64,000 nt of DNA from positions 34,621,464 through 34,685,463 of the forward strand of contig OZ020490.1 of NCBI GenBank assembly GCA_963971405.1. The letters are read 5' to 3'. A model generated the notes under the pieces. It was given only the letters and a program-made list of their open reading frames with translations. It was not told the origin of the DNA and did not search any database. A program made the translations under genes and the position numbers. Shown here piece after piece: positions 3,374-35,364 of this stretch. Origin of the DNA: Psococerastis gibbosa. Its lineage: Eukaryota; Arthropoda; Insecta; Psocodea; Psocidae. Position 1 is the stretch's first letter. Each line of letters starts with the position of its first letter.

Positions 3374-6300
3374 TTATGCATGTAGGTATTCGATAAGGAA
3401 TTCAGGGAGGCATTGGTATCGATCATAAAGTACGAATTCCTGATGTCTCATGTTTGCAGCTCTTCCGCCAGTTTTCCTTCCAGAAACTGCAATCACAGAA
3501 TCGAATAATTTTGTCGGATTCTTGTCACTGACTGGCGGTGGGCGTCGTAACTCGTTAAGTGGTTCAGGTGTTTTAAATGGATTCCCTAAAATGACGCGCG
3601 CCAGGAACATCATACGCACTGTACCTTCAGTGTATTGATCTGATTTATCCGCGTTTTCTGCGAAATAAATCCCAGCTCTGTACATCCCTCCCATACTGGC
3701 AACTCGCTCATCAAAACCGGTTCTTGCTATTATTTTTGACACACCTAGTTTCGTTCCATGGAACAACATAAACTCGTTCACATTCGAGTCCAACTTCATT
3801 TCGTCCATCCAGTCGGCGTTACAATCGATTTCGAATCCAAGGCGCGGTGGTTTACTATCCCCAACTATTTTCAAGTGGTGAAGGTACGTGCAGTACATAT
3901 CTTTGTCGTATATTCGACGAACCTTAATTACTTTGAAATGAAATGAAATGAAAATACGACTTTATTGTAAACAAAACAAAAGGCGAACAATAAGACTATA
4001 AAGTCTTGTTTTCATGCTAACCTTAAAAACCAGAAAAAAAACATTGTGAACTATTATAACTTCATTAAAATTAAATAGAGAAGAAGGAAACAGAGGAGTA
4101 GTAAAAAAGAAGGATAAAAGATATAGGGGGGGGGGGGGGGGAAATCCATTGTCATCACCATTACATGGAATCTCCTAAATTTTTTTCCGTCAGCGTCCCT
4201 ACCTCGCCCTAAATCGTTTATGTCTACAACTGATTTATTCATTAAATCTTCCATCTTTCGTCGGTATTGAGCAGTGACATCGTGAATACCAGGCTTCGCA
4301 CGTTCAGGAAGCTTTTTTGCAAACTCTTTTTGCAATTTTGCCTTAACAGCCTTTTCCTCGAATTCTATTTTCTTAAATAACTTGGCAAAATCAGCGGGAT
4401 GGTCAAATCGCAGCAATTTTCCACAACTTATAAACAGGAGCTTGCGTCCCAGTTTGCCTTTTTCCCGAAAATACTCAACCGCTGTTCTCCAGGAAGTATG
4501 GGACTCGAACAAGCTACTGCACCCAAATATGTAGAGTCCAAGCTTGGCACGTGACAATGCGACACACGCCCGATTGGTTGAGCCTAGGAAACCAAGTGAC
4601 GTTTTATTCTTTTCCAAATTCTCGCTGGCGCTTCTGACTTAAAAATATGAAGTCATTTTCATCACCCTGAAATCCATCAATGGTGCACACATTGACACCT
4701 TCAACCTCGTACATAGCCAGCAGCTCTTTGATCTTTTTGGCTTGACCAAGATATCCAGTAATGATACTTATTTTACTAGCTAGAATATTTTGCACCTGGA
4801 CTAACAAGCGAACTGATCCAACAACCATTAATGCCTCAAATTCGTTCTCGAACGAAGTTCCGTTCCGACTGGCTGGAGTATCGTGTGTCCACCAATACAT
4901 GTGTCCTAACTTTGCAAAGGTTTTCGGAAGCAGAGGGTCCAATTTTGTAGGTATAATTTCCTGGTCGTAAAACCTTGAGAACAGGGGAACAAGAGACTGT
5001 GGACCACGCCTATGATATTGCAGCTGTGAGATCGGGTAGCCATTCTTGGCAAGTCTTTCAAAAATACTGACACCCAAGTTGAATTTTTTGGCCAGGCGGT
5101 AGTGGTGAACTTGTGGTGGCAACTGACGATGATCTCCGATTAGAACCAAGTGTTCTACGCTCGGTGGCAGTGCGGCTATCAACTGGGCTTCTAGAATTTC
5201 GGCTGCCTCTTCCACAATGGCAATCTTAGGGGCCAGGCGTGAAATGACCCCCATTTTAAGACAACAACCAGTGATGGTGCATGCCACTACGTCCCTGCTC
5301 TTCAAAAACTCAACATTTCTTTTTTCGTTTAGCTGCTGTACCTGCAAATGAAATCCCTTATAATGGTCCAATGTTTTTGCGAGATGTTCGCTTTTTGCCT
5401 TTCTCCATTCCCTAAGCCAGTATGACAGCAAAATGTACCGCCCCTCGGGCACCAAAGACCAGACGTTACCCACAAAACGAACATCCTGTTCTCTGCAATG
5501 AGGTTCTAGGTAAGCCATGCTACCTTGCAGTTTTGGGTAGAGTTGAAACTTTTTTGGAGGAATTTTCAGGAATTGTAGCTTTGACTCTTGGCCAACAATG
5601 CGTTCGTGCAGTTCATTTTCCCAATATTCCTCTTCAGGTGCATCGTCTTCTTCCGGGACATCATTTTTGCTTACTTTAGATGTGCTGTCTTCTTTGGGCT
5701 TGTTGCCTTTTCTTCTCCTGCTTTGACATCTTGCTTCGCTTCCTTACTTGCACCTTCATCAGGCTCCCGGGTACCTTCCTCTAGCCCGTTACTTACTGTT
5801 TGGTTCGGCGCCCCAGTTTCTTTTATATCAATGCCATTCCCTTCCTCCTGCTTACTTTCTTCTCCCGTACCCTTACTTTGTATTGTCTTCTGCTCATCAT
5901 TAGTATCACCTTCTTTTTTAGGCTCATCGGCAATCAACAAAGATAGCTTAGGTTTCGGAAGGAACTTTGCAGATTCAGACTCCGAAAGCCATTGTCCCAT
6001 AGACATGCTCAGCAGCTTCTGAGCTGTTTTTTCATGCTCGGTTTCCAAAATATCGGTTACTGCCTGCCAGGTTTCCTCCAAAGTTTGGTAGGCAACTTTT
6101 GTCTTAATTATTTTGCTGTAATTTTTTTCAAAGTTTTTAAAAATCAAAGAGTGTAGTTGCTGCTGTTCAACAGCTCCTCCTTGACGTAGAAAGTGGAACA
6201 AAGCCTTTGCAGTAAAATCACAAGATAACTCAATAGTGGCATCTTCTAGATCTTTTTGAATTTCTTGGACTTGGCTTTTTGCTTCCAATAGTTTCTTTAA

Positions 6301-6504
6301 CTTCTCATCAGGAAAATACTTCTTCGCTTCGCCATGAAGATTATGCAAATTGAATTCAGCAATTGTATCTGACTTGCTTTTTCCGCCAATTCTGACAACA
6401 TTCTTGGTAAACCGAAGACAACCCTCTAGAATGTTATCGAGGGCGTGGTTTTTATATGTCATGACTAGAATGGGTCCCTCAAAATTCTTTGATTTAAGCA
6501 TTGC
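3374..6504 (-). pseudogene. Helicase-PARP copy 2, 3' part (broken)
   Basis: Carries the C-terminal two thirds of the protein encoded at 26323-31048: motif Ia (VMTYKNHALD), Walker B-like VEEAAE, motif III LIGDHRQLPP, motif VI ALSRAKLGLY, then a PARP domain (FHGTK, GIYFAENADKSDQYT, HQEFVLYD). It is not one open frame. A one-base shift occurs near 5700. Compared with copy 1, five bases are missing near 4640, inside motif V. A repeat interrupts the coding sequence at about 3932-4140. The frame starts abruptly at 6496-6504 because a LINE separates it from its 5' part at 13105-15358. The damage means no full protein can be made. Confidence 0.9.
3932..4140 (-). mobile_element. 5'-truncated retroelement 3' end
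   Basis: This insertion splits the pseudogene just before its PARP region. Read on the minus strand, it ends with AATAAAGTCGTATTTTCATT and a (TTTCA)n tail. The same tail occurs inverted at about 54113-54180, so it is a dispersed retroelement end. A G run (at least 15 G on the plus strand, near 4122-4140) lies at the other edge. No enzyme domain is left. Confidence 0.55.
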
Positions 6505-6686
6505 AAAACAGTTCGTTGGCGTCTTCCGTGCGAGCAACAGCTGTTACCTGTTGTTACGAGTTGTAGTGCGGTTGGATCTGGGAGTGCGGTTGGATAGTGT
6601 TTAGCTTACCTACCTATTCCTTTCGCAGTTTTCTATACTGCTTCTTCAACTATTTTATAGTTTATTGGCAGTGATAAGTGAACGAG

Positions 6687-8493
6687 ATGGGGGCCGAAAG
6701 TGGGGGGGAATCCCCCTCGGAAGAGATGATCCTGGATAAGCAGCCTGATAGTCGCAATGTGGAGTTGGACGGCCTACAGCCTGGTCCTCAGTCTAAGCTT
6801 GATCCTGTGCTCCCTTCTACGTACAGGGTGTCTGACTGTGCCCCTTACATCGTGCTCGTGGAGAGATTTGCAACGGAAGGGGCGGGGATTTCCCGTCTTC
6901 ATCCCATGGTTATCGGTAAGATGATGAGAGATATCGTTCCACCGGTGAGTCATGCCATAACAAATATTAAAAAAATAGGATGGAATAGGGTGCAAGTTAC
7001 TTTTTCGTCAGCATCGGCAGCAAGCACTTTAATTAACAATGCAGCACTCAAGGAGAAGCATTTCAGGGCCTACATGCCGATTCATTTGGCTCGTAGGAAG
7101 GGCGTTATAAGAGGGGTTGAACCCTCTTTGTCCAAAGAGGAAATTATGATGTACCTTAAGGCGGAAAATGGCCAGTTAGAAATTTTAGATGTGACAAGAA
7201 TGACTCGCAGGGTTTTTTCTGAGGACGGCACAGTGTCCCGTGTGCCAACCTACTCTGTGATGGCCACTTTCAGAGGGCATGTACTACCCGACAAAGTTCG
7301 GATCTTATACGTGTCCTGTCAAGTTCAGGCCTTACCATGTTGATTCCAGTACAGCAGAACATGTTTCAAACTGCGGCAACTTGGTAGTGTGCACAGCGTT
7401 GGCAGGGGAACCTGGTGGGACATGATAACGCGCTTAGGCAGTATAAGTCGAGTCCTGGTCACCTCCGATTTAATCGTGTGACTTTACCATGTTCCCCAAG
7501 TGGTTCGGAATCCACTATAATCAGGAGGTCCACCCTGTTAGTCAACTCCCCTTTCCCCGAGGTGAAAGAGTCTGCCCTTAGGGTGCCTCAAGTTAACAAA
7601 CAGACTCACTCCACCTGCCAGGCTGACAGGGTTGCTTAAAGCAGAAATGCTGAAAGCAGGCGTTAGAAACAACAGTTCAGGCCTTTGTTCAGAACGTTAT
7701 ACAGTGTCGAAATTGTTGGAGGTTCGGGCATTTCCAAGATAACTGTAAAAATAAAGGTAGGACATGTGAAGCTTGTGGGGAAATTGTCGATGACAATCAT
7801 ACGGAAGAGAGCTGTAGGTCGAAAGGGCCCCATTGCATAAATTGCAAAGGGACACACAAGGCATCTGATAAAAATAAGTGTGAGAAATTTGGAGTAGAGC
7901 GCAAAATTAAACAAGTTATGGCCGACTTTAATCTAAGTTACTGGGAAGCTAAACGCCAGGTAACTGGTGAATCATACGCCACCATTGCTGCAAATGGGCC
8001 TGAGCCCGCGCCCCACAATAATAATGGTATTGATTTTCCTATGCTGCCAAAAAATAAGCCATCAGGCTCCACTAGGGGTAAACCCCGACCTGCAATTAAG
8101 ATACCGGTTAGGGTACCAGTTAAATTAACGGGTAGAGGGAGAGTAATGGGTGAGTCGGTTAAAAGGAAAAAGGTAGGCTCTCCTTTATCGCCCCCCACAC
8201 CCATTCCCCCTGAATTGTACTACAGACATGAAGATAGATATGTACCTGGAGGGTATATTAAGAACGTAGAGCCAGGTAGGCAAGGTTCTTCTTTTGGAAA
8301 CCTACAGGGGAAAGAAGGACAAAGGAGACAGGACAGTGGAAATGATGGCGACAGATTTTGCCTATTTGTAATTAATTTAGTTAATACTTTAAGCGAGATC
8401 GGCACGTTACATGACAGTGAGTTAACCGAAGAAACTGTTCGAGGTATTATAAAATCTAAATGTCAATCAGGATTATTCCCATTCAAATTTTAA
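6687..8493 (+). pseudogene. LINE ORF1 (gag-like), split by a SINE
   Basis: Encodes the RNA-binding ORF1 protein of the LINE. The first ATG in frame is at 6687; in-frame codons upstream are not ATG. The N-terminal part (6687-7330) is a basic, RRM-like gag region. After the SINE, the frame resumes at about 7674 with three zinc knuckles: CRNCWRFGHFQDNC, CEACGEIVDDNHTEESC and CINCKGTHKASDKNKC. The C-terminal part is proline- and lysine-rich and ends at 8493. The SINE duplicated 12 bp (AGTTCAGGCCTT) of codons for VQAF, so the uninterrupted protein would have been about 480 residues. Confidence 0.85.
7328..7673 (+). mobile_element. SINE-A copy 2, inside the LINE
   Basis: Same family and direction as 787-1162. 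It is flanked by AGTTCAGGCCTT at 7322-7333 and 7674-7685; the left duplication overlaps the element's own 'ggcctt' start, so the edge is uncertain by about 6 bp. Its presence inside the LINE shows that SINE-A was active after the LINE family spread. Confidence 0.85.
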
Positions 8494-9005
8494 AATGGTA
8501 TAAAGAATTAGATATTTGTATCGTTGACTTAGGCCGATTGCGTATGTGGTCATGTGTATACGCCTACATTTCGGTTTGTGTGTATGTGCATAGTCATATA
8601 CCTATATATCCATTGTTTATGTTATATATATACATGTATATTGTGTTTTGTATATATGCAATATATATTATGTATGAGGTATATTGTATATACATGAATA
8701 TATATAAGGTATATATATACACATATTATGTGTACTCATTTTTATTATATGTATTTATAGGCATATGCCTATATATAGTCATGTATAGCCTGTTTCGTCG
8801 AGTTTACAACTGCTTACAGGAGTTTCATATAATGTTTAATTTACTTGTCGATGCATATATAGCCTATGTATATATGTATTATGTATTTTTCTAGGTACTT
8901 ACGACTAATCGATAAAGTGGGTAGAGCGAGAAGGTTTGGCATATTTTTATTACTATTATTACTTTGTTTATTTTTAATTTTGTTAAATTACACCTAGGCC
9001 TATGA
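8494..9005 (+). other. LINE ORF1-ORF2 spacer, TA-rich
   Basis: About 500 bp separates the stop of ORF1 from the first endonuclease homology. Much of 8600-8890 is degenerate TATAT/TACAT sequence. It stays open in one frame and would encode a tyrosine- and isoleucine-rich chain, which follows from composition and is unlikely to be a gene. Confidence 0.6.
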
Positions 9006-9009
9006 TAAA

Positions 9010-12000
9010 TTTTTACAATGGAATAGCAGATCGCTTATTCCTAAGCTAACTGATCTCGAGCATCTATTAACAGCAAAACAGATTCACGTGGTTTGCGTTA
9101 CTGAAACTTGGTTAACACCACAACAAGTATTCGTAATCGTATTGTCAGGATTTGACATAATACGTGAGGTGATAGTAATGATGGATGGGGGGGCGCGGCG
9201 CTCCTGCTAAAAAATTCATTCAGTTATATAAACATATCACCCACGATACAGGGTATACGTGATGTACAGCACGTCGTTGTGAAAATAATTAATTTAATAG
9301 TACTATATAACAGGGCGCGTCGTACAATTTCCTGCAATGAGTGGGAATCATTTTTTAAAGCTATACCTGAGCCAAAAATAGTGTGTGGTGACTTCAATGT
9401 CCATGCTATGTGTTTTGGGTCTTCGTATACAACAAGTAAAGGAGTTCACTTGCTAGATGCCATGGAAAACTCAGATTTGGCCTATTTAAATGATGGTTCA
9501 CCTACCATGGTCCCCCGGTCACGCTTTCCTAACTTCTCATCGGCAGTCGATTTGACTTTGATTACGCCTCGTTTGGTTCAGCACTTTGAATGGGAGGTTG
9601 GAACAGACCCGTTGGGCTCTGACCATTACCCCATTTTTTTCTGTTCTTTGGACTATAATGGACAACAACAAATTAATCAGCCGTCTAGAAAGTGGAATAT
9701 TTCCAAAGCGGATTGGGTCCTTTTTCAAACTCAGCTGGCGGCAGAACCACTTTCGTCTGCATGCTCATATAAGGACTTTATACAGGGTGTGGGAAGGGCC
9801 TGCGAACAGGCCATACCTAAACTTAAACCTTTTAAAAATAACCGCACAGGTGCAGTCTGGTGGACGACTGAATGTGAGGAGGCGCTAGTGGGACGTAAGC
9901 GTGCTGCAGCAGCCTATAAACATTTACCTAATGAACAAAATTACGAACGGTATTTGGCGAATCACAGCAACTTCAGGGAAATTATTGCCAAAGCCAAAAA
10001 GTCGCATTGGGTCCAGTTTTGTGGGAAGTTGAATCGTTCTACCCCTATCCGGGATATATGGACAAAAATAAGAAAATTAAAAAATGCTAATGTCAATTGT
10101 GCGTCTTGTAACGCAGAGACCGGAGAATGGGTTGAGGATGCTCTTAATAACTACGCCCCACCTTTTGTACCCACCAGAATTATAATGATTCCACAAAAAA
10201 GTGACTTACTGCCCGGCTCGGACCATCTTTTAATGCAACCTTTCACTTTAAATGAATTAGATATTGCTATGTGTCAAAACAACAATACAGCGCCGGGGAT
10301 AGATAATGTCACCTATCCCATTTTATCAAATCTAAATTCAGCATATAAAAATAATTTATTGCAACTGTTCAATTCATTTTGGCAGAGTGGCAATTTCCCT
10401 GGAGAATGGTCTAAAATAACCCTCGTGCCGATTTTAAAGCCCGGTAAAATGAAAGGTATCTGGGAATCCTATCGTCTTATCTCCTTGTCTTCTTGTTTAT
10501 TAAAAACCATGGAGCGCATGGTCAAACCGAGAATAGAATGGTGGGTAGAGAGTAATAAGCTACTATCTCCAACTCAATGTGGCTTCAGAACCGATAGATC
10601 AGTGACAGATTGCCAAGCACAGCTAGTGTGCAGCATTCATCGAGCCCTTGCAAACAAAGGGATTGTTTTGGCGCTATTCCTCGGCTTTACTAGAGCCTAT
10701 GACTGGGTGCAGTTAGACCTACTGGCCGAAAGGTGGTTGGCTTCTATGAAATTTCCGAACAGGTTCATTAACAATATCACTACCCTATATTCTCAACGAG
10801 AGGTCTCACTCCGATTGAATAAATTAAGTGAGCCGAGAACTGTCAACCAAGGGTTGCCCCAAGGCGGAATTTTGAGTCCAGTCCTATATTCTTTGTTTGT
10901 GTCTGACATTGACACTATTGTACCCGCTGGCGTGCGAATATTGCAATATGCTGATGACGTGGTGGCGTTCTGTGAATGCTCGACCATGGCGGAGGGAGTT
11001 GCTAAACTTGATGGTTTTGTTAAACAATTGTTATTGTGGTGTCGCAGTAAGGGTTTGGAATTGTCATTCACAAAATCACACATAGTGCCCTTCACCCGGA
11101 AACGCAACTTACAAAATATATCATTTCTAACTCTAGGTGGTGTGGACTTCACTCTTAAATTTGAATTCAAATTTCTCGGTTTGTGGCTTGACAAAACCCT
11201 TACTTGGAAAACTCACATAGATCTCATTCTAAACAAGTCGGCAATTTATATAAATATACTGCGGGCTATAGCAGCAAGCAAGTGGGGGGCCGACCCCAGT
11301 ACCTGTTTGCTTTTTTATCGAGCAACGGTTAGGGCTATCATTGATTTTGGTTCTATTTTTTATGGACAGGGTTCCAACGTGCACTTAATCAAAATCACCA
11401 GACTGCAGAATAAGTGCTTACGCCTGTGTCTGGGAATGTTGAAATCTACTCCCATTGATGTTCTATGTGCTGAGGCTGGTGAATTGCCTATTACCTATCG
11501 AAGACAGTTATTGTCAGACCGATTCATTTTGCGACTCAAATCGCAAGATAGCAGCGCTCTTCCGGGTATAGCTAAACTATCAGCAGAGGTTTTAACATCG
11601 CAGCGGTGGGATCATCAACGATCACCTCCTATTGTAGATAGTTTCATTGCCGACTATTGCAACTTATCTTCTTTACAGGTGTCTAACACCCCTTACCAGT
11701 TCATAATACCATATAATGTTACTATCGCCCCTTTCACCTTTACAAAATTTGAAGGACATAACAATACTCAGTCAGATATGGAAGTTAATAAAGTATTTTT
11801 GGATTACGTAAGCAATAAATGGTTGTCCAGGGTTAAAATCTTCACTGACGGCTCCAAACAGCACGGGGGTGTGGGATGTGCCTATCTGGATGCAACACAC
11901 AAAGTGTCACAATGTTTTAATTTGCCTCACCTCTGTAGCAGTTTCTTCGCGGAATTATCAGGAATTCTTTCGGCTCTACAATACATTAGTGAAAATCTTG

Positions 12001-12992
12001 ATGCCATGGTTACGGGGGTTGTAATTTTTACCGACTCCTTAAGCTCCCTTCAATTACTAGCTAAACAACACCCTTCCAAAGCGGGTAATATCACGGTTGC
12101 CAGCATTCTAAAATTAGTTAATTTCATACAAGAGCAAATAAATATTCATTTCGTATGGGTCAAGGGGCATGCGGGGATTAAATTTAATGATGAAGTGGAT
12201 GCCCTTGCGAAACAAGGGGCTATCAGTGGACAGCGAATACAAGTACAAGTACCAAGGCAGGAGTACTTGCCCCATTTACAGATTTTTTACGTCCAGCAGT
12301 GGCATCTGGATTTTAAAACATCAGGGAAAGGGCAGTTTTACAAGACCTTTCAAATATACCCCCCTCGGAAGCCATGTTTTTTTTTTTTTTTTTTTTTTTT
12401 TTGAAACTAATAGACACCCCCAGGTCCATGTCAACCACTATTTGCCGGCTCAGGTCCAACCACGGACTAAGCCCGAGTTATCTTTACCAACCATTACGGC
12501 TAAGTTCAAACCCCTCATGCACTCACTGCGGAGGGGATTTCGGCGACTTCCAACACTTAATTTTGGAGTGCCCCAATTTTGCCACCCATCGAGAAATTTT
12601 TTTTGACAGTTTAATACCACTTATTACATCACCTTTGTAGTCAGAATGGCGTAGAGGTAACGACTCGGACTATCATCCAGAAGGTGACTGGTTCGAGTCC
12701 CACCCGAATGCCAAAATTTTCTAGTGGTACAATTATTTATCTTCTGACTACCATGCTTCGGAGGGCATGTAAAGCCGGCGGTCCCGGCAGTCTTCCCTGA
12801 CTGTCGATAGGTTAAACAGGAGGCTGTTGATGCAACCTGAAAACTCCTGTACCACGGGTAGTACCACCCCGACACGAATTTACTTTACTTTACTTTTTTA
12901 CATCACCTTTCAATTATCAACAGATTTTAAGCAGTTATGAGTTATTCCATTTACTCCACAATTTCATACAAACTTGTTCCATATCCGTCTAG
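9010..12992 (+). pseudogene. LINE ORF2: endonuclease, reverse transcriptase, RNase H (broken)
   Basis: The replication protein of the LINE. An AP-endonuclease start (LQWNSRSLIPKLTDLEHLL, then TETWL) is visible from about 9012. A G run near 9186 shifts the frame, and the main frame then continues with GDFNVH, GSDHYP, the reverse transcriptase (GLPQGGILSP, QYADD) and RNase H (FTDGSKQHGG, AELSGI, VKGHAG). In RT motif A the expected Asp is Gly (LFLGFTRAYDWV). A run of about 25 T at 12378-12402 shifts the frame again before a C-terminal CTHCGGDFGDFQHLILEC zinc motif. A SINE (12637-12897) replaces the last residues; reading across its target duplication, the original stop is at 12990-12992. Confidence 0.88.
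12637..12897 (+). mobile_element. tRNA-derived SINE-B
   Basis: The head resembles a tRNA gene with an A box (TGGCGTAGAGGTAACG) and a B box (GGTTCGAGTCCC), the pol III promoter elements. A core follows (CCATGCTTCGGAGGGCATGT, then AAGCCGGCGGTCC), then a (tttac)n tail. A perfect 13-bp duplication, TTACATCACCTTT, flanks it at 12624-12636 and 12898-12910. The core recurs at about 32480-32600, 40490-40570, 42578-42650 and 56690-56790, sometimes without a recognisable tRNA head. Confidence 0.85.
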
Positions 12993-13104
12993 CATACACC
13001 AAACTAATATAAATAAAACAAATAAATTAACTCCATAGCCATATACATCAAAACCTGAGCATGGCCGAATGATGTAATCAAGGCAAAAAAAAAAAAAAAA
13101 AAAA

Positions 13105-15358
13105 AAGCATTGCTTTAATGATCTCCTTGCCGACAAACGTTTTCCCACAGCCCGGAGGCCCCTGAATAAGGGAAAATCTATTTTTTAAAGACGTTGTGGC
13201 TGCCATCTTTTGGCTAACGTCTATTTTTGAACTGCTTTGAAGGTCTGATTCGGAAAATTGCAAGGGGGAAGCTTGCGGTTCAAGGGATTTCAGCAATATT
13301 TCAGAATCAAATGAAAAATTGGTCATGCTTTGGAGTCTAGTAAGGACTGGGCAAAACGCGTTATAATATGTAGGGCTCTCCACCATCACGCCTGATTGGC
13401 ATGACATCAATTGCTGGAATGCTAAAACAAGCAAATCGGCCGTGGGCATGCCATCCTTATCCTTTCCGCTTGTGTCAGCATAATTACTACCAACCCCGAC
13501 CAACATAACCGAAATCTGAGAGCTGTTTTCCTCGACAGAATGAACTGTTGCCCAAATTGGGTTTAAAAAGCTCGTATTTGAGTCAATGCACAGCAGGTTT
13601 CCGTACATAAGATTGGTCTGTGACTTATGTGGCTTGTAATGAACTTTCACTACAATAGTGCCTTCGGAAATGGCGTAACCGACAACTTTAACGTTGTGAT
13701 GAACGTATTGAGGATTCGAAAATTGTATTCGAACCCTTGCGATTCTGTCTCGAATAGAAGCGAAGGTTTCTTCCCTTAATAGTCTGAAATGAACGCTTAG
13801 AAATTCTTCGCACGAGTCCCAAGGGCCATCGATACGATTTTGCACCAGATGTGACTCTAGTTGAAGCAAATTCTGCACAGCCGTGTCATTTGATGCTAAA
13901 GATGCAGTGACAAGTGTATTTATTACACCGACTAGTTCTTCTTTCATTGGGATGAGCGGAAGTTCGCGGAAGCTCTGAACAGCAAGTGACTGTGCCTGGA
14001 AGTTACACACTTTTGAGCAATTATCTAACAAGTCTAGGAGACCTTCTGAGTCTTCAAAATAGCAACCTCTTAGTAAATGGCGTACGGGCTCAAGGTTCCT
14101 AGTAGTAAGAACTAATAACTTAATGAGGCGTTTAATGGTAGGGCGTTCTTCATCCGTGTAATCTTGGGCCAAACGCATAAGAAATGTGCTTTCTTTCGAG
14201 GCAATAAGTTCAAGAATTTCCTGAAAGCGAAGCTGATGATTCCTTTCTCCAAAAGAAATTGATTCCTTTTCGGGAGGTAGAATTTTGGTCATAACCAAGC
14301 CCACCGTTTTGTGATCCAAATTTTGGGCTTGGCTCAGCATAGACGATGAGAAGAACGGTCTCCATGAAAAATAAAGTTTTTCAATGACTTGTTGGTGATT
14401 CAAGTCATGTGACAATGTTTCAAACGCTTTCAAAACTTCATTTGACGAAAGTTTCATGTACACGTGTGGCCTTGCCCATAGAACTGTTATACCATCGGAA
14501 TAATTATTCACTTTGATTCCCAGGAGAAATCTGGTAAAATTGGCAATGATGGGCACAGACTGGTCGGAAAGATGACGGAGACAACAACTCACATATTCAT
14601 TTATGTAAGGGCCTTCTTCAATCTTAATTCTGAACGTACCATCGGTACTTTTTACAACAAGGCCAAGAACATTGGAACGAAATTTATCTTTTTGGAGCCC
14701 TTTTGTACTAAAGGGGGTGTTACGAGCCTGGCTAGTATTTGAAGGCCGGGGTTTTGGTGCTGTTTGGGGCTGCGGCAGAGTTTGATTGCCACTTGCATCT
14801 GGCTCCTTTAACGTGGTTGCAGAATCATGAGAGGTTTGATTATTACTTTTTTGTGAACTATGATTTTTTTGACAGAGAGACTCGAGCGATTTTTTCGATT
14901 TAGCCTGTTGATAGTTGCTTTTTGGGGGTGGCGTACTTGAGGCAATCGCGGGACTCCCCTGCGTTTGAATTATTTTCAAGGGCCGCGTTTGTTTTGGACG
15001 TAAGGGCTTACCAAACCTTTTGAGTTTAGTCTGTGGACTGTTCGCATGTGTTTTCGGCTGAACTGAGGAAGAGTTTTGTGTTGAATGATGTTTGGTAATC
15101 CTTTGGTATTTGACGTGAGGTGACTTCACCTTCAACGAGATTTTGGGTTTGGTCCGTGGCCGCTGCTGCGACGCGGACATTCGTGCATACGTGTATGCGC
15201 TAATTACAGTTTTCTCGGTCGTAATTGAACTCTTGTCAGATGGGCTATCTATTACTGGATTGGAATTTGCAGCAGACGTACTTTGCGTTGTAGCAGACGA
15301 GCCTCCACTATGTGTTCGGTGTGCGTTTGCATCCAAATGTGCGCTCGCACCTTCTGAA
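13105..15358 (-). pseudogene. Helicase-PARP copy 2, 5' part (broken)
   Basis: The N-terminal half of copy 2, reading leftward until the LINE poly(A) tail interrupts it after Walker A (GPPGCGKTFVGKEIIKAML). It matches copy 1 from about 14710 onward: a conserved region with SVPIIANFTRFLLG and WARP, an alpha-helical region with HFRLLREE, then the helicase. The first 200 or so residues are Ser/Thr/Pro/Lys-rich and diverge strongly from copy 1. The minus-strand sequence TTTCCTTTCAG at 15359-15369 looks like a splice acceptor, with the same phase and a similar first residue pair (S-S-E) as copy 1, so the parent gene also had an upstream exon. I could not find that exon. Confidence 0.9.
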
Positions 15359-26322: not shown

Positions 26323-29300
26323 TTAAGCATGTTTATACTCGATAATGAATTCAGGAAGACACCGATATCGATCATACAGAACAAATTCTTGATGTCTATA
26401 ATTCGCAGCATTTCCGCCAGTTTTTCTTCCGGAAACAGCAATAACAGAATCAAATAGTTTTGTAGGATTCGCGGCATTGACCGGCGGTGGGCGTCGTAAC
26501 TGGTTAAGAGAAGAGTTAGTTTTATATGGATTCCCTAAAATGACTCGCGCCAGGAACATCATATGAATCTCACCGGTAGTATATTGATCAGACTTATCGG
26601 CATTCTCAGCGAAATAAATCCCAGCTCCGTACATCCCTTCCATACTGGCCACTCTCTCGTCAAAGCCTGTTTTTGCAATGATATCCGCGACCTCTGAGCC
26701 CTTCGTTCCATGGAAAAGCATACATTCATTAACGTCTCTGTTCAGCTTCATGTCTCGCATCCAGTCTACGTTAGTATCGACCTCGAAACCCAGTGGCTGT
26801 GTTTTACTTTTCATGACAGTTGTTATGTGGTGCAAATACATGGTATACATTTCTTTATCAAATATCCGGCGAACTCTGGTTACTTTGAATTTACGAAATC
26901 GTTTCCCGTCTGCGTCCCTACCCCGTCCCAAATCCTCACGATCCAAAACAGAGTCGTTCATTAAATCTTCGATTTTTCCACCAAATTCTTTAGTTACATC
27001 GTGTATTCCAGGTTTTCTTTCGGGAGGAAGGAATTTGGCAAATTTGTTCATTATTTTCATCTTTGTCTCCTTCCGTTCCATTTCGATCTTTTTGAATAAT
27101 TTAGTAAAATCGTTCGGATGATCGAACTGGAGTTGCTTACCGGAAATAGTAATGGTTAATTCTTTCCCAACCTTACCTCTGATCCGGAAGTACTCAATCG
27201 CTTTTTTCCATGAAGTGTTTGCTTCGAACAAACTGCTGCAACCAAATACGTAGAGCCCACGCTTGGCGCGGGAGAGGGCGACGCAGGCACGATTGGGTGA
27301 GCCCAAAAAGCCGAGTGAAGACTTGAATTTGTCCAAATCCTCACTGGCGCTTCTGGTGAGGCTCAAAAATATAAAGTCATTTTCGTCACCCTGAAAACGG
27401 TCAATAGTGCATACATTGACCCCTTCGATTTGATCCTTGGCAAGTAACTCTTTAATCTTCCTAGCCTGCCCAAGGTATCCAGTAATAATGCTTATCTTGC
27501 GTGCCTGAATATCTGCCAGGTCTACCAATACGTGAACTGCTCCAACAAGCATGGCCCCTTCATATTCGTTTTCAAACGAAGTTCCGTTCGGGGGGTTACG
27601 CGCCGGAGCGTCGTGCGTCCACCAATACAAGTGACCGAGTTTGGCAAACGCCTCCGGCAACCGAGGATCCTCTTTAGTTGGTATGATTTCGTGATCGTAA
27701 AACCGGGAAAACAGGGGCACCAGAGACTGAGGACCACGCCTATGATATCGCAACTGAGAGATCGGGTAGTCATTTTTTGCAAGTCGTTCAAAAATGCTGA
27801 CGCCTAAGTTGAATTTCTTAGCCAAACGGTAATGGTGTACTTGAGGTGGCAGTTGTCTGTGATCTCCTATAAGAACCAGGTGCTTGACGCTCGATGGAAG
27901 TGCGGCAATCAACTGTGCTTCTAGAATTTCAGCCGCTTCCTCAACAATGACAACTTCAGGACCCAGGCGCGAGATAACTCCCATTTTTAAACAGCATCCG
28001 GTGATGGTGCACCCGACGATATCCCTACTCTTCAAGAAATCAATGTTTCTCCCCTCCTCCAAAACCTTCACTTGCTCGTAGAATCCTTTATAATAGTTCA
28101 AACCTTCTGCCAGATTCTCGCTCTTTTCCTTCTGCCATTCCCGAAGCCAGCTTGATAACAGAACATAGCGTCCTTCAGGTGACAGAGACCACACATCACA
28201 CACTCTGCGAACATCCTGTTCCCGACGATGAGGCTCGAGGTAGGCTATACTTTCTTGTAACTTCGAGTACAATGCCTTGCGCCCCTGGGAAATTTTTACA
28301 AAACTGATTTTTGATTCGGAACCCACGAAGCGTTCTGCCAGGATATCATTCCATTCGTCCTCATCCGGTTCTTCCTCTTCTTCTTTTGGTACTTTAGCGG
28401 TGCGCATGAACAACGACCGTAGTGGGGCCGGCAGAAACTTTGTTGAATCCTCTTCGGATAGCCACTGCCTCAAAGACATATTAAGCAGTTTTTCTGCTGT
28501 TTTCGGGATTTTGACAACATCAGATACTGCATTGGTAACTTCCTCACGAGACAAATATTCCACTGGACTCTTAATTAATTCTTCGTAATTTTTGACAAAA
28601 TTTTTGAGCAGCAAAGAGTGCAATTGTTGCTGCTCAACCGTTCCTTTTTGAAGCAAGAACTCGAGAAGAATTTTCGTCGTAAAATTACCTGACAATTCCG
28701 TAGCGACGTCTTCGAGCTTTTCTTTTATGCTCTGAACTTGAGCGTTTGCCTCTCTGAGACTTTTTATTTTTTCCCGCGAAAAAAATGGCTTTGCCTTCTC
28801 ATGAAGGTTGTGCAAATTGTACTCTGCTATTTTCTCCGACATACTTTTTCCACCAATGCGTACCAGAGACTTAGTGAATTCTAGGCAGCCCTCAAGAATG
28901 CTATCAAGAGCGTGGTTTTTATAAGTCATAATAAGAATAGGACCCTCAAAGTGCTTTGATTGGAGCATAGCTTTTACGAGATTCTTGCCGACAAACGTTT
29001 TCCCGCATCCCGGAGGACCCTGAATCAAGGAAAACCTGTTCTTCAGCGAGGACTCTGCTGCAGCCCTCTGACTTTCATCCACATGCAAGTTGCGTGAAGT
29101 ATCAATTTTGGAGAAATCTAACGAGGATGGTTGCGGTACAGTGGACTTAAGCAGGATTTCGGATTCAAACGGAAATTGATATTCCGGCAAATTTTGAAGC
29201 CGCGTGAGCACAGGCCGGAACGCGTTATAGTAAGTTGGACTCTCCACCATTACTCCGGAACGACAAGAAGTCAGCTGTTGGAAACCGGACACTAGTAATT

Positions 29301-31048
29301 CTGCACTCGGCAAACCATCCGCATCTTTTCCGCAAGTGTCAGCATAATTGTTACCTACGCCAACGAGCACAATGGAAATTTCTGAGCTGTTCTTTTCCAC
29401 CGATTGCACCGTCGCCCAGATCGGATTCGAAAAACTAGTGTCTATGTCAATACAGACCAAGTTACCGAACATCATATTGGCCCGTGACTTGTGGGGTTTA
29501 TATTGAACTTGTACGAGGATAGTCCCATCGGCAATGGCGTAGCCTATCACTTTCACTTCTGTGTGAACGTATGGGGAATTTAACGACTCCAGCCGAACTC
29601 TGGCAATGCGATCGCGAATAGAAGCAAAACACTCCTCCCGCAACAGTCTAAAATGCACACTCAAAAATTCTTCGGCCGATTCCCAAGGACCTTCAATTCT
29701 ATTTGGCACTAGATGCGACTCGAGTTGATGCAAATTTTGCACCTGTTTGTCCACTGAAGATTCCCCAATTAGCGTACTTATCACTCCAGCTAATTCGTCC
29801 ATAATAGGTATTAGGGGAATTTTTCGGAAATATTGAGCCACAAGCGATTGTCCTTGAGAATTCGACCGCGCGAAGCAACTTTCTAACAACACAAGCAGCC
29901 CAGCACAATCGTCCACGTAAAAATCCCGGAGCAAGTGACACACTGGCTCAAGCCGCTTAGTGGCAGAAACCAACAATTTAATAAGTCGCTTAATACTCGG
30001 TACATCTCCGTTTGTGTAGTCATGAGCTAGACGCCCAAGAAATCTGCTTTCCTTGGAAGCAATAAGGTCTAGAATCTCTTGGAAACGAAGCTGATGGTTC
30101 CGATCTCCATAAGAAAGAGCCTCATGTTCAGGAGGAAGAATTTTGCCCAGAAGCAAAGTCATCGATTTGTGATCCAGGTTTTGGGCCTGGGACAGAACAG
30201 TTGCGAAAAATGGCCTCCAAGAAAAATAGAGTTTTTCAACAACAGCTTCATGAGTTAGATATTCGGGTAACATCTGGAAAGCCGAGCAAACATCCTGGGA
30301 TGTGACTACTAGATACTCTTTCGGCCTCGCCCAGAGGACTACTAGCCTATTCTGGGATTTATCCTCCTTAACACCCAGGAGTAAACTTGTAAAGCTGGCG
30401 ATGATAGGCACAGAAGGATCGGACATATGCCGGGGGTAACAACAGACAAGTTGGTTCAAGAAAGGCTTTTCCTCAATCCTTACCGTATATCTGTCGGCAG
30501 ACACTCTTAAAACTACCCCCTTAACACTCGCCATTGACCTAAATTCATTTTTTAAACGCCCTTGATTTTCCGATGATTTACCTGATTTTTTTGACTGAGT
30601 TTTAAACCCGTCCCCATCACCAGGAGGCTTTACTGATTCAGCAGCAGCATCCACCTGATGCTTAGTTATTTTTATCAGCCCTTGGGTATCTTTTGATTTT
30701 TTTTTCCGTAACCTGGGTGGTCGGATCTCTGGACCTATATTATTTGGATCGTTTATCTCCATCAACTTAGGTATTTGCGCTCTTTTTGGTTGCGTAACTG
30801 AGTTGTCGCCTGCTGCAGTCATATTAGGCGCACAATCCTCCGGTTCTTGAGACCTAGACATTCCCGGCCGGATCTCAGCGTCGTTTATGATTCCGACTTG
30901 GTTGCTTGGCTTGGATGTTTGTAAGCTGTCTTGCTGGTGGTTTACCCCCGGAATGGCAGGGATTGAAGCAGGAACAACGTCTTGAGAACTACATCTCCAT
31001 GACATGTCTATTTTTCTTGACTTGGACGGAGAGCCCACTTCATCAGAG
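26323..31048 (-). CDS. ZNFX1-like RNA helicase fused to a PARP domain, main exon
   Basis: One open exon of about 1,575 codons ending in TAA at 26323. The segment to about residue 170 is polar and probably disordered. Residues 170-660 resemble the region before the helicase in ZNFX1-type proteins (HFRLLREE near 460). The SF1 helicase has Walker A GPPGCGKT (28996-29019, about residue 675), motif Ia MTYKNHALD, Walker B-like VEEAAE (about 1030), LIGDHRQLPP, FQGDENDFIFLS and ALSRAKRGLY (about 1255). The C terminus (about 1400-1571) is a tankyrase-like PARP with His in FHGTK, Tyr in GAGIYFAENADKSDQYT and Glu in HQEFVLYD, the H-Y-E set of polymer-forming enzymes. No NF-X1 zinc fingers are seen. The minus strand reads CTTACTTTCAG at 31049, a splice acceptor; the frame has no early ATG, so translation starts in an upstream exon. 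Antiviral or small-RNA roles are known for ZNFX1 and only inferred here. Confidence 0.92.
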
Positions 31049-31289
31049 CTGAAAGTAAGAAAAATTATATTAACGGAAGAGTAATTTAAATTTAAATTAG
31101 GTCAAAACAGCGCTTCAAGACTTTGTGTCTATCATAAAACCGCTGGATGGAATTGTCCGTCCAGCGCGGGAATCAGTAACGCTGCCCCTGTAATGCCCAG
31201 CTCCGACTGGAATTTAACACAGAATAGCATCCCTAATGAGTGCAGGTAAAGCAAAATTTTATGGTTTTTGTCCCAGCAAACAGCCTCAC

Positions 31290-31610
31290 AATGTTGAATC
31301 CACGAAAGCAGAGCGTGTTTCAAACTGCGGCAAACTTGGTAGTATGCACAGCGTTGGCAGGGGATGAGCATGGTGGGACATGATAACGCGCTGAGACTAT
31401 ACCAGTCCTAGTCACCTCCGATTTAATCGTGTGACTTTACTATGTTGACCAAGTGGTTCAGAATCCACTATAATCAGGAGATCCACCCTGTCAGTCGACT
31501 CCCCTTCACCCCGAGGTGAAGGAGTCTACCCTTAGTGTGCCTCAAGTTAATAAATAGATTCGCTTCCCCCGCATAAGCTTAAAGCCGAATGCTGCAAGTA
31601 GCCGTTAGAA
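31290..31610 (+). mobile_element. SINE-A copy 4, diverged
   Basis: An older copy in the helicase-PARP intron, antisense to the gene. It retains 'gtttcaaactgcgg', 'gcacagcgttggcagggg', 'cacctccgatttaatcgtgtgac' and 'ctcaagttaa' in order. The long stem arms are decayed (GGGGATGAGCATGG and CTATGTTGACC). Confidence 0.75.
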
Positions 31611-31892
31611 AAGAATTGTTTAAGAATTCACCCCTAGTTATATACCTGTATATAACAGGGGTGAATTCTATATATATATAGTTAGTTAAATGTCAGTGTT
31701 ATAAAATCCATATAATATTGCAATATATTGAATATAAAAATGAGTTTGTTAGGTAGTGAGTGCTATACCCTCGCACGCGCCTCTGGCATCAGCGGGCACT
31801 TCAGCTTTTATAACTGCAAAGGCTTTCACGGCCGGAGTCGAATGAGGAACCAGTAGAATCCGGGCTGATGGGCCGTGGTCGAAGTGAAAGTG

Positions 31893-31940
31893 AACTTCCA
31901 AACGTTTCGTCAACATCTGCGGTCGACATCTTCAGTGGAA
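31893..31940 (-). ncRNA. Hammerhead-ribozyme-like motif
   Basis: On the minus strand the order is TTCCA, CTGAAGA (matching CUGANGA), a stem GTCGAC/GTTGAC with a 7-nt loop, GAAA, CGTT, TGGAA. The flanking TTCCA and TGGAA can pair as stem I, so this matches the type I hammerhead layout with a minimal stem III known from Penelope-like elements and retrozymes. The homologous sequence at 53135-53175 has GTCAAC/GTTGAC, a change that keeps the stem paired, but its CTGAAGA is damaged. Cleavage activity is not shown. Confidence 0.5.
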
Positions 31941-32029
31941 CTGCGTAGACTTCTAAGATTGTATCTCGGAGGCTCAGCAGCGACTGTGAGGGCAGGAGGT
32001 TGTGCTCTGAAATTTATACTAAGATGCGG

Positions 32030-32235
32030 GGTGGTGGGGGGTGGAGGCGGAGTCATCCTCGCTCCTGATTGGCTCCCTTGGTTGAGGTAGTAGCCACTAC
32101 ACCACGCCACCTAGGCCATTCTTCCGCCGCTAGCTTCCAGTCTCGGGTGCCGGTGGCGTTCTCATCTTGGAGCACTTGGTCTCTCCACCTTAGTCTTGGC
32201 CTACCGGGACGCCTAGGGTGGTTGAAGGTGTCTTA
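32030..32235 (-). pseudogene. LINE ORF2 C-terminal fragment
   Basis: The minus strand encodes [19 protein letters not shown] and, further on, [15 protein letters not shown], the common carboxy-terminal tail of LINE-encoded reverse transcriptases. A related fragment lies at 44610-44760. The hammerhead-like motif lies just downstream on the same strand, so both may belong to one retroelement remnant. No RT core is present. Confidence 0.65.
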
Positions 32236-32439
32236 AAAAACCAGCTTCGGGGTCCTTTCCCCTTGCATACTGTACACTGTATACTCACCGCAAGTAAATT
32301 AACAAGATACTCTTATATCTACAGACCAATTATTTCGTAACCAACAATTATTACACTAGTATTAGCCTAAAACGGAAAAATCCGGGTAAATGAGCCCCGC
32401 TCGATCTTAAAGAGGACTTTGTTTCGTCCCTTACAGCGG

Positions 32440-32600
32440 CCGACATCTTCGATGGCCCTACGCAGACTACATAGCCTCCGATCTCCGTCAATAAATCCGT
32501 CAGGACATGAAGAGCAGATTAGTCGATTCGAATCCCATAAGTCATGATACATTTCCTGACCATGCTTCGGAGGGTATATAAAGCAGGCGGTCACGGACCT
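32440..32600 (+). mobile_element. SINE-B copy, diverged
   Basis: Contains a B-box-like GATTCGAATCCC followed by 'gaccatgcttcggagggtat' and 'aaagcaggcggtcacgg', matching the SINE at 12637-12897. A (ctta)n tract follows at about 32620. Further homology ('ttcataaccctaactccactag') at 32757-32780 suggests the SINE end was separated by another insertion. Confidence 0.65.
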
Positions 32601-33042
32601 TCCTATAGTTGAGTGTATACTTGCTTACTTACTTACTTTGTCCGGGCATAGGACACGTTGATTCAAAACGTAGCGGCCTGGATGACCTTGTCATTGGCGT
32701 CTGAAAGATCTGTCTGGGACACAGCTTGATTGTGCTGTTGAGTGTATGAAGGGGGCTTCATAACCCTAACTCCACTAGGTTGGCTTAGTAATAGAAAAGT
32801 CATCATTTATTTATTTATCAACCTTGTTATTGGCCCACCGTCAATTATTCATTATTTTTATTTTGTTGTGTTAATTTCGTTGATAACTGAAAAAATTTCA
32901 AGGCGAAGGAGAGTGCAGGCTGGCGCGATATGGCAGAGCTGGCCGTAGCGCCAGGGAGTAAGTAAGTGAGATGGACTTGTTAACTTTATAATCTGGATGA
33001 CTATGTTTGTATACTTAAATGAAGCCAAGACTTTGTGCCTAC

Positions 33043-33200
33043 CTTTCATTCATAGACAAAAAATTATCCATGTCTTCAATAATGTTCGAGACGGCATCAT
33101 TGGTGTTTCTGTCATAGTCTAACATTGATGTTTCCTCCATGGCGGCGACAGCAAGAGTCCCATCATCCATAATATCAGCAAGATTGAGATCGTCAAACGC
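33043..33200 (-). CDS. Upstream exon of the helicase-PARP gene
   Basis: On the minus strand a pyrimidine-rich TTTTTTTCAG precedes the segment and GTAGGC follows it. The 158-nt exon is open and acidic (AFDDLNLADIMDDGT, then ETSMLDYDRNTNDAVSNIIE). It ends with GAA AG, which joins C-TCT-GAT at 31048 to give AGC and keeps frame into the main exon. Exact phase match on one strand is good evidence that the two are spliced; the intron would be 33042-31049. The exon starts in phase 0 at an acceptor, so another 5' exon is expected, although internal ATGs exist. Confidence 0.65.
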
Positions 33201-34990
33201 CTGAAAAAAATTATTTAGTAGATTAATTAGTACCACATGTGTCAATAAACTATATATTGAGAGGATGTGGAATGCAGAAAATTGGCACACAACAATCACA
33301 TGTTTTTTTATCGAATTTAACGTAGAAGACTTTTGTGCATGATAATGTATTTTAAGGTACCTACCTATTTTTTAATTTTAGGCGCAGCCGTTCTTGAAAG
33401 CAACTTTCCCCCATTAGGCCTAAATAATTTTATGGAAAATGCGACACCCGGGAAGAGATGGACGGAAAACACGCTAAGACGTGCCCGCCTCTCGTTAGTA
33501 TCAGAGGTTCCCCAGATTATGTGTTGTACTGGGCTGCAAGAAAGCTGATGGCGGAAGCCTAATGCTATGGTGTAATTAAAAAATAATAATAATTAAATAT
33601 ACCCTAATGTGGTGTATGAAAAAGTTTTCTACTGAGTAGACCAAATTTTTAAGAACTTCGAAAATTATCGTATTTAAGATAATTAAATATTAAGTAGGCC
33701 TAAATTAAAATTAAATATAAATAGTATTTAAGAATTTTAGAACCCCACACGATTGTATGGGCCATAAGTTATAAAGTACGGCCAAAAAAAATGGCACCGT
33801 CTTTATTTTAGTCCCAAGGTTTCACCCCCTATGGCGAAGATGTTCCATTTCTATGCAAACTTCAATTTCTCATGAAATATGGAACGCAGAACAATGACAA
33901 AATGCTGAATCGCAAGAAGAATTTTTTCTCCTAATTTTGATACATAGACTATAATAAATATAACTTAGTATGTTGCAATCATCAATACCGATCGGCTGCA
34001 GTTAGTGAACTTGATACGCAAGAAATAACGGTCGCTCAGGAGTTCAAGTTGAAGCAGTTCATCAACTGTGGCGAATTGGGGTTAGTTAAGGCCCCATACT
34101 ATACATCAAAATTAGGAGAAAAAATTCTTCTTGCGAGTCAGCATTTTTTCATTGTTCTGCAAGCCATATTTCATGAGAAATTGAAGTTTGAACGGAAAAT
34201 GTAATATGGGCGACTCCGGTTGGCCCTTAATTACTGTATGCCAAAGTTATAGGCTGGCGTTGCAATAAAAAATTGGAAGCTGCACGCCAATGATGTGGCC
34301 TGCGTGGAAAGCCTGACCGCCTGAATTGCGGAGCTGCTGATAAGCATAATACTATTTTAATGGACTTGTTCACGGTCACGTCATGAAACTCTTAACATAG
34401 GCCAACTAACTTGTCTAACTTCTAACTTAATCACTCACAGATAATGAATACTATGAATCATGGGTCACTGAAGTTTCTTGTAGGCTATATAACGCTATGT
34501 TAAAGATATACTAGAAAGTAACCAACAAAAATTGTAATTATTAATTGCTGAAACACATGTTAGCTGCACATAATTGCAGATTGTATAAGGATTTTGTTTA
34601 TTGTTTGCCAGATTGTCATTATATTTGACATTACATGTAGTCGCTACCTACTTGTCAACGTATGTTAGGCCTACTTACTGTTATCAGTTCAGGAAAAGGC
34701 GATTCCGCCATTATCACCGCTTCGTCAAAATCAGAACTTCTTTTCAGTGTTTAATAAATAATAACCTTAATGTTTTAAATGCACAGCCTATATAAAACAA
34801 TAACGCCTGGACTTTAAGACTATAATGAATCATTACTTGACTATTTGACAAGTTTTAATAACAATAAAACAAACATGGCGGAAGAAGGCGTCGTTTCCTC
34901 GTTTGCTGCGGAACAGTAACAACAATTTTGCTGCGGTGTTCATATTTAGTTTATGAAGTTTACAGTTTTTTTAATTAATGATACAGAATA
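33201..34990. other. Gap with a foldback element
   Basis: Arms at about 33841-33955 and 34098-34205 are inverted copies ('cttcaatttctcatgaaatatgg', 'aagaagaattttttctcctaattttgata'), forming a foldback element with a spacer of about 145 bp. No gene is supported. The first exon or promoter of the helicase-PARP gene may lie here on the minus strand, but I could not identify it. Confidence 0.45.
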
Positions 34991-35017: not shown

Positions 35018-35364
35018 GCGTCTATTCCATCTGTCAATAACCCGTCATTTGTGTATCAATAATAAGTCTCTACCATATTATAACTTAATTTAATTTAATA
35101 GACAAGTGAAGTATCTGCATAATAGTTTTCTATAAAGGTGCCCATTCCACATACGTACAACGTCAACGAAAAATTGAAAAATGACGTCAAAATGACGTAA
35201 ATTGACGTGGTAGCAGAATTTTTAGTATGTCTTTAATGTCTGCTAAAACGTCATTTTTCAATTTTTCGTTGACGATTGAAGTATATGGAATACCCCCCTA
35301 AAACAAGCATCTCATCAATTTTCGATGCACAACTGACGGATTATTGAGAGGTGGAATAGCCCCC
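35018..35364. mobile_element. Harbinger-type MITE with a nested relative
   Basis: The outer element starts GCGTCTATTCCATCTGTCAA and ends TGGAATAGCCCCC, flanked by TAA (35015-35017 and 35365-35367). It is related to 52630-52806. A second MITE (about 35137-35298, starting GGTGCCCATTCCACATACGT and ending TATATGGAATACCCCCC) sits inside, with long arms around 'gacgtggtagcagaa'. Confidence 0.7.

Follow-up and report, generated by a model that had tools for sequence, protein, structure and literature searches.

A helicase-PARP protein is encoded by the window, that is, the whole 64,000-nucleotide stretch of the Psococerastis gibbosa genome analysed here. This protein joins, in one uninterrupted frame of 1574 codons, a superfamily 1 (SF1) helicase resembling ZNFX1 and a C-terminal PARP domain, as the first-pass annotation of the window had proposed. 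Its Pfam matches to AAA_11 (3.6e-30), AAA_12 (7e-27) and PARP (1.5e-14) all exceed the cut-off, so that the domain search suggested at that time has found the PARP where it was expected, at the C terminus.

Gene structure

The main exon (26323..31048, minus strand; 1574 full codons plus stop) was delimited by its reading frame, its Pfam matches and the reading of its motifs. It is the part of a stop-free frame of 1592 amino acids (26323..31101) that remains downstream of an acceptor AG located just before 31048. A candidate second exon (33043..33200, minus strand; 52 codons and 2 nt) was recognized by sequence reading, and its splice phases agree with an in-frame join to the main exon; this exon was implied by the end coordinate of the first-pass annotation, which did not state the strand of the gene. 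A tentative candidate for the first coding exon (34679..34711, minus strand; 11 codons with a phase 0 donor), read in the same way, lies outside the span considered at that time (26323..33200).

When the window was resampled 60 times under a first-order Markov model, the longest stop-free frame averaged 157 amino acids, with a maximum of 227. This difference in length, together with the existence of independent copies in the genome and of a relative with the same architecture (P0001, see below), rules out that the fusion is due to chance or to an annotation artefact. The window also encodes UGDH, read as five joined exons with one stretch missing, which points to an insect. Among the 120 rows listed out of 7847 matches, this UGDH shows 77.2% identity to that of Gryllus bimaculatus and 75-77% to those of a katydid, a water scorpion, a damselfly and a mayfly; Ladona fulva ranks first by bits but lies outside the top 25 by identity.

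Domain architecture

From the N to the C terminus, the protein consists of a beta/solenoid part, the ZNFX1-like helicase, a cysteine-free linker, and a PARP of the tankyrase/PARP12 type, all encoded on the minus strand. An AlphaFold2 model of the first part (mean pLDDT 68) predicts a beta barrel in residues 172-244 (30316..30534), an alpha solenoid in residues 250-490 (29578..30300), at the position of the ARM domain of ZNFX1, and a beta domain adjoining the helicase core in residues 495-564 (29356..29565). The sole PDB match of the N-terminal model under 0.001 is ZNFX1 9q9z (E 8e-9, TM 0.30 of the query), and the ZNFX1 family PF25396 scores 15.5 bits in the protein against a cut-off of 27 bits.

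The helicase core was defined by Pfam and motif reading. RecA1 (AAA_11, residues 656-1071; 27835..29082) holds the Walker A motif GPPGCGKT from residue 677, VEEAAE from 1035 and LIGDHRQLPP from 1059, while RecA2 (AAA_12, residues 1082-1271; 27235..27804) holds FQGDEND from 1218 and ALSRAKRGLY from 1257. All the motifs on which the assignment to the ZNFX1 type had been based are therefore present, and the assignment agrees with ZNFX1 9q9z being the best of the 66 PDB sequences matched (7.6e-82), followed by UPF1, Aquarius and SEN1.

The protein shares this core with ZNFX1, and perhaps also the predicted N-terminal solenoid and beta part, but it differs in the absence of NF-X1 and RZ fingers and in the presence of a PARP at the C terminus. 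The lack of NF-X1 fingers, already noticed in the first-pass annotation, is evident from the absence of any CxHxC motif in the protein. The linker (residues 1300-1386; 26890..27150), which occupies the place where the Cys-rich finger block of its relatives starts, contains no cysteine at all, and only two are found past residue 1300. The RZ finger is likewise absent from the Pfam scan of the protein (to E 1).

The PARP domain (residues 1386-1574; 26326..26892) was identified by Pfam, fold and motif reading. It shows the predicted fold, the PF00644 match and the H-Y-E triad that characterize the PARP (ARTD) superfamily, with the predicted catalytic residues being H1446 (codon 26710-26712), Y1478 (26614-26616) and E1554 (26386-26388). 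Sequence matches of this half in the PDB are to PARP12 and tankyrase (~2e-10), and tankyrases rank first in fold searches; PARP12, PARP15 and PARP10, named as mono-ADP-ribosyltransferases in the PDB, are close to it by sequence or fold. The domain thus shares its fold with the catalytic domains of tankyrase and PARP12, and the triad with tankyrase. Unlike tankyrase, the protein carries no ankyrin repeats or SAM domain, neither of which is among the 21 families of its Pfam scan (to E 1). The triad is retained in all three intact copies of the genome, in a broken tandem copy and in the five rows of the PARP comparison, although its presence is no proof of activity or of chain formation.

Copies in the genome

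Two further intact single-exon copies, with ~61% identity, are present in the 409-Mb genome, as well as at least two that are broken. The N-terminal part evolves fast among these copies. In a recent pair, w reaches 0.53 in the PARP and 0.26 in the helicase, indicating that the PARP is the less constrained half.

One of the broken copies is a tandem paralogue located in the window itself and split by a LINE. Its pieces, all on the minus strand and located by tblastn, are an N-terminal portion extending to motif I (13108..15000, matching residues 86-694), a portion matching residues 693-913 (5851..6504), another in a different frame (4628..5623, residues 899-1232), a fourth in yet another frame, in which reading revealed one in-frame stop (4162..4674, residues 1224-1389), and the PARP, which on reading retains the catalytic motifs (3377..3937, residues 1387-1574) and is preceded by ~225 bp of additional sequence (an insertion or an intron). 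The LINE (6505..13104, plus strand) ends in a poly-A at its 3' end, encodes an endonuclease-RT-RNase H open frame (9168..12404) and is flanked by a 9-bp target-site duplication (6496-6504 and 13105-13113); its insertion is recent.

A canonical ZNFX1 query against the genome yielded 15 rows, 12 of which belong to the helicase-PARP family and the remainder to UPF1, Aquarius and DNA2, with no match to the finger region. A search with zf-NF-X1, in which the controls were silent, found two places at C3:11.79 Mb, separated by 6 kb. One of them, as read, contains a RING-like stretch and no helicase, and therefore looks like NFX1/shuttle craft. Searches for the RZ finger and PF25396 gave zero matches, but they are uninformative, since their controls were equally silent. 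Since no finger-bearing ZNFX1 was found in the genome, the family may represent an RNA sensor whose response is another kind of chemical mark. By reading of the matches, the genome also has a separate tankyrase-like gene.

Relatives in other organisms

The fusion is not unique to this genome, given that helicase and PARP occur in one protein in 19 of the 46 matches of one search, as well as in P0047 from another. Besides the intact copies mentioned above, the same domain order, which the first-pass annotation had recommended looking for, was found in P0001, encoded in a 7980-bp JGI contig and 53% identical across the searched part. Like the window protein, P0001 has no CxHxC motif and a single PARP, but its N-terminal part is shorter.

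A second type is represented by P0010 from Clytia hemisphaerica, P0003 and P0009 from Adiantum, and several others. These proteins share with that of the window the kinship of the helicase and its position ahead of the PARP in one polypeptide; they possess, however, a Cys-rich block resembling fingers and, in most cases, two PARPs that seem to be of a different type, whereas in the window protein this block is missing and the single PARP is of the tankyrase/PARP12 type. For 11 of the 14 remaining rows in the PARP-linked group, visual inspection and a crude count of CxHxC motifs gave at least one motif, and P0007, P0013 and P0026 have none despite being Cys-rich. Two PARPs of at least 100 residues are found in nine of those 14 rows; in P0002 and P0009 the second is partial, and a dead first PARP sought in P0017/P0018 gave weak matches (i-E ~0.03). 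The zf-NF-X1 family is absent from the Pfam results of the scanned relatives and from the precomputed lists, even for the canonical P0011 and P0012.

P0047 (EukProt) also holds a helicase followed by a tankyrase-type PARP in one polypeptide. Nevertheless, its helicase belongs to another branch, and the protein has a short stretch rich in Cys as well as a long charged region, probably a coiled coil, features which make it look like a separate fusion.

Phylogeny of the two halves

The helicase tree (31 rows) was derived from one of 43 by removing 14 rows on account of their length, a long branch or a span only partly covered (P0016, P0024, P0025, P0029, P0032-P0039 except P0040s, P0042, P0044 where present) and adding L009 and L010. 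In this tree, the window clade joins PARP-linked helicases of ferns, a hydrozoan and other eukaryotes, outside the canonical ZNFX1 group; a branch (100/99) separates 18 PARP-fused rows from the rest. Once P0047 is counted in, the helicases reject a single origin of all 19 fused rows (AU p 0.0028). The choice of rows affects the result: in the 43-row tree, the PARP label needed three changes because P0047 and P0029 interrupt the group. P0029, a PARP-less coral helicase inside the PARP-linked group (98/97), looks truncated, as it ends about five residues past the matched span and lacks AAA_12.

It had been proposed that an ADP-ribosyltransferase replaced the fingers of ZNFX1. The fingers are indeed missing and the PARP is C-terminal, but a grouping of the window helicase with canonical ZNFX1 is rejected (AU p 0.0019), which disfavours replacement. 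Considering the helicase grouping and the CxHxC motifs of the relatives, the loss of the fingers probably took place in a lineage whose helicase was already joined to a PARP.

Separate phylogenies of the halves had also been recommended in the first-pass annotation. In the PARP tree, the finger-bearing family places 24 PARPs on one side of a branch (100/98). The AU test does not reject the union of this family with the window clade (p 0.064), one origin of all fusion PARPs (p 0.085), or the union of the window clade with P0047 and P0017/18/25 (p 0.056); the union of the window clade with P0017/18/25 is rejected (p 0.019; P0024 omitted from that tree). The tree sets the window PARP apart from tankyrase, with an AU p of 0.379 for their union and a host tankyrase row that fills 45% of the columns. 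"Tankyrase-like" is right for fold and catalytic motif, while descent from tankyrase is neither shown nor excluded.

Proposed function

ZNFX1 has recently been reported to couple RNA recognition to ubiquitin transfer, according to a review (PMC13270118). A host gene for an RNA-activated helicase with ADP-ribosylation as its output instead of ubiquitin transfer is the reading that we favour, tentatively and at slightly less than an even chance. The Upf1/ZNFX1-type core would bind RNA and use ATP to move along it, in the way that ZNFX1 acts on long single-stranded RNA, and RNA binding or clustering would bring the C-terminal PARP domains together. These may then use NAD+ to ADP-ribosylate their own protein, the bound RNP and perhaps RNA, so that RNA of foreign or transposon origin would be marked or clustered. 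A similar chassis in ZNFX1 drives ubiquitin transfer through C-terminal zinc modules, whose place is taken here by the PARP. We infer the ATPase activity, RNA binding, ADP-ribosyl transfer, their coupling and the antiviral or anti-transposon role, and the sensing function would be borrowed by analogy from ZNFX1, although the helicase tree separates the window clade from it. The lack of linked immune genes and the weaker constraint on the PARP in the recent pair count against this reading.

The ZNFX1 family includes a small-RNA inheritance factor of C. elegans (PMC11959080), and a germline or small-RNA factor of that kind is an alternative that we consider rather unlikely. The helicase would take part in the amplification or inheritance of small RNAs, and the PARP would build a granule by ADP-ribosylating its neighbours, with immune sensing being secondary or absent. 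The three intact genes, the broken ones (at least two, one of them LINE-interrupted) and a fast N-terminal part also fit a conflict with transposons. Nevertheless, the helicase lies outside canonical ZNFX1, and we know of no need for ZNFX1 in the well-studied insect small-RNA pathways. Somewhat less likely still is a general helicase of mRNA turnover or stress granules whose PARP regulates the helicase itself by mono-ADP-ribosylation. UPF1, Aquarius and SEN1 as the next-best PDB relatives, the proximity of PARP12, PARP15 and PARP10, and the enrichment of ZNFX1 in stress granules on arsenite (PMC11959080) are consistent with it, but several copies, some of them broken, would be unusual for a housekeeping factor, and UPF1 and Aquarius are also present in the genome.

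Some PARP relatives have lost activity. A non-catalytic or ADP-ribose-binding PARP half in a protein that is only a helicase or scaffold would agree with the w of 0.53, but we regard it as improbable in view of the conservation of H, Y and E in every copy and row compared and of the first rank of tankyrases in fold searches.

Returning to the RNA-activated helicase, it is possible, albeit doubtful, that ZNFX1-like proteins constitute an RNA-sensing chassis with swappable outputs. Canonical ZNFX1 would use ubiquitin transfer, and an old, widespread and undescribed class of eukaryotic helicase-PARP proteins would use ADP-ribosylation; the sole ZNFX1-like helicase of this insect would be the PARP version, which lost its fingers and multiplied as a single-polypeptide defence triggered by RNA. 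The main text of two PARP family surveys (PMC2964712, PMC4245714) contains none of the terms "helicase", "NFX1", "NF-X1" or "AAA", and no description of the fusion was found among the titles and abstracts of the matches listed in a search outside which preprints and most subscription journals lay.

If the helicase couples to ADP-ribosylation without fingers, the sensing core would be a reusable switch, and the compactness of the protein allows a direct test of this coupling, with RNA in and ADP-ribose label out. In vertebrates, antiviral RNA helicases and PARPs sit in separate proteins; if the proposed reading is true, these two antiviral arms would be joined here in one. In Aplysia, ZNFX1 and PARP14 are named as separate genes (PMC8195618).

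Architecture of the fusion gene

The helicase-PARP gene occupies a stop-free frame of 1592 codons on the minus strand (26323..31101), and a splice acceptor immediately ahead of 31048 leaves 1574 codons in the main exon. In 60 Markov resamplings of the window, the longest frame averaged 157 aa and reached at most 227. A short upstream exon (33200..33043, minus) joins the main exon in frame, as does a further, less certain one (34711..34679, minus). The first-pass annotation had proposed a ZNFX1-type helicase and a PARP in a single exon, which is confirmed by the open frame and by a Pfam scan, where AAA_11, AAA_12 and, C-terminal to them, PARP all score above cut-offs. Among solved structures, ZNFX1 is the best match by sequence (9q9z, 7.6e-82), and the PARP half is similar to PARP12 and tankyrase.

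A gene family under constraint

Used as query against its own genome, the window protein matched 15 of 18 candidates. Besides the window gene itself they include, on contig C3, two intact copies of one exon each (frames of 1526 and 1988 aa, ~61-62% identity), a broken copy at C3:5.166 Mb, five pieces of a tandem copy inside the window and, at C3:29.193 Mb, a PARP tail of 31 residues; the remainder show weak helicase or PARP similarity. The fusion is a gene family in this genome, not a lone fusion. The longer intact frame (L010 1480-7443, minus) exceeds that of its paralogue L009 by ~460 residues, mainly N-terminal, where a block of >100 residues appears twice, as judged by eye.

A LINE (6505-13104, plus) interrupts the tandem copy at motif I, within its helicase exon; the element holds an open endonuclease-RT-RNase H frame preceded by zinc-knuckle-like frames (recognized by eye; no Pfam match for these). 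This insertion looks recent, because it is flanked by a 9-bp target duplication and its reverse transcriptase frame is open. The tandem copy also shifts frame at other places.

Comparison of the two C3 copies with each other gives a dN/dS of 0.26 in the helicase, 0.28 in the ordered N-terminal part and 0.32 in the linker, and 0.53 in both the PARP and the first 170 residues. Silent sites are mostly saturated in older pairs, for which the PARP is estimated at 0.12 (window/L010) and 0.16 (window/tandem copy). These ratios indicate that both enzyme halves are maintained, the PARP being held less tightly in the recent pair.

Relatives and origin of the two halves

Residues 650-1574 were searched against 5.8 billion proteins, scoring the 7988 candidates that shared most words (lengths ~866-2754 aa). 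AAA_11, AAA_12 and PARP occur together in 19 of the 46 matches. A second search, with linker and PARP, found five proteins, two of them helicase fusions (P0001, a JGI contig protein, and P0047). Fusions with organism names come from two Adiantum ferns, Clytia hemisphaerica and Macrostomum lignano. The EukProt entries P0016, P0025 and P0047 have names that, by their style, presumably denote assembled transcripts; helicase and PARP therefore seem to share one mRNA in eukaryotes other than P. gibbosa. In most database fusions a Cys-rich block precedes two PARPs; P0001 shows the finger-free order of the window protein. Another enzyme is joined to such a helicase in P0035, P0040 and P0041, SF1 helicase matches that also bear PF05183, an RNA-dependent RNA polymerase domain. 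C2-domain, WD40-kinase and macrodomain proteins (P0048, P0049 and P0050) end in a PARP of the window type; a short conserved segment ahead of this PARP, seen by eye, is common to them.

The two halves were placed in separate trees. In the helicase tree (31 rows, 701 columns), a branch supported at 100/99 sets apart 18 PARP-fused rows, among them the clade of the window protein (the window clade), and the AU test rejects uniting this clade with six canonical ZNFX1 rows (p 0.0019). Descent of the window helicase from an already PARP-linked lineage is thus well supported by these sequence comparisons. An earlier 43-row tree with long branches contained this group (100/97) with 20 PARP-fused rows; it also took in one coral protein that lacks PARP and looks truncated. 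A single clade of all 19 fused helicases is rejected (AU p 0.0028), P0047 being placed elsewhere. In the PARP tree (38 rows, 186 columns), 24 PARPs of the finger-bearing family, the fusions with a Cys-rich block, fall on one side (100/98), and the window clade (98/98) sits among tankyrase, PARP12 and non-helicase PARPs. Neither its union with the finger-bearing family (AU p 0.064) nor that with tankyrase (p 0.379) is rejected. The PARP may have been exchanged as well.

Canonical ZNFX1 and a proposed mechanism

Crayfish ZNFX1 (P0011, 2013 aa) was compared with the whole genome, scoring the best candidates only. Of 15 matches out of 17 candidates, 12 belong to the fusion family and three are Aquarius, UPF1 and DNA2 (the last by reading); none of the 15 extends past query residue 1201, into the finger region. 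Canonical ZNFX1 is likely missing from this genome, since a search that picked up individual exons of much more remote helicases would be expected to show its helicase exon; this absence is likely rather than proven, as only the best candidates were scored and the assembly may be incomplete. NF-X1 fingers occur at a single place, as two matches 6 kb apart, and the one that was read adjoins a RING-like stretch, with no helicase.

According to a 2026 review, recognition of long ssRNA with ATP leads to self-ubiquitination of ZNFX1, while ubiquitination of RNA by it is disputed (PMC13270118); its RZ finger holds a catalytic Cys/His pair, according to another paper (PMC12075652). Compared with ZNFX1, the window protein keeps the helicase, lacks those zinc modules and bears a PARP at the same end. 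The earlier proposal that a PARP replaced the fingers of ZNFX1 holds for this layout, but is not favored for descent, as the helicase does not group with canonical ZNFX1. From the architecture, a ZNFX1-like logic with another output can be proposed, in which clustering on RNA would switch on NAD+-dependent ADP-ribosylation in cis. The number of copies, the recent disruption of one of them and the fast-evolving N-terminal part are compatible with genetic conflict, without proving it.

The helicase and PARP families are known, and proteins of helicase-PARP architecture can already be seen in databases, where automatic annotation calls them, for example, 'PARP' (P0009, P0010); none of the papers listed by full-text searches describes the fusion. 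What is new is the finger-free combination and its apparent role as a stand-in for ZNFX1 in an insect.

Genomic surroundings

A tandem satellite array (58100-64000; 167-bp unit, 333 also fitting; ~35 copies, 89% matches) continues past the window end. A SINE-sized dispersed repeat of up to ~370 bp, with copies 75-97% alike, appears in both orientations at 802-1148, 7328-7674, 22563-22918, 31276-31611, 42860-43230, 46455-46699 and 47917-48191, with one copy within the LINE stretch and another in the intron ahead of the main exon. ARAGORN found no tRNA genes in the window. MITE-like inverted-repeat elements lie upstream of the gene at 35202-35532, 36958-37191 and ~38900-40060; the translation of the third, recognized by eye, resembles L040 1004-1240, near the NFX1-like locus. 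The window also holds a UDP-glucose 6-dehydrogenase (UGDH) gene of several exons (43969-48608, plus), which places the host among the insects, and a mariner-like transposase remnant at 41398-42087 on the minus strand, matched by HTH_48 (Mos1) at 1.1e-7.
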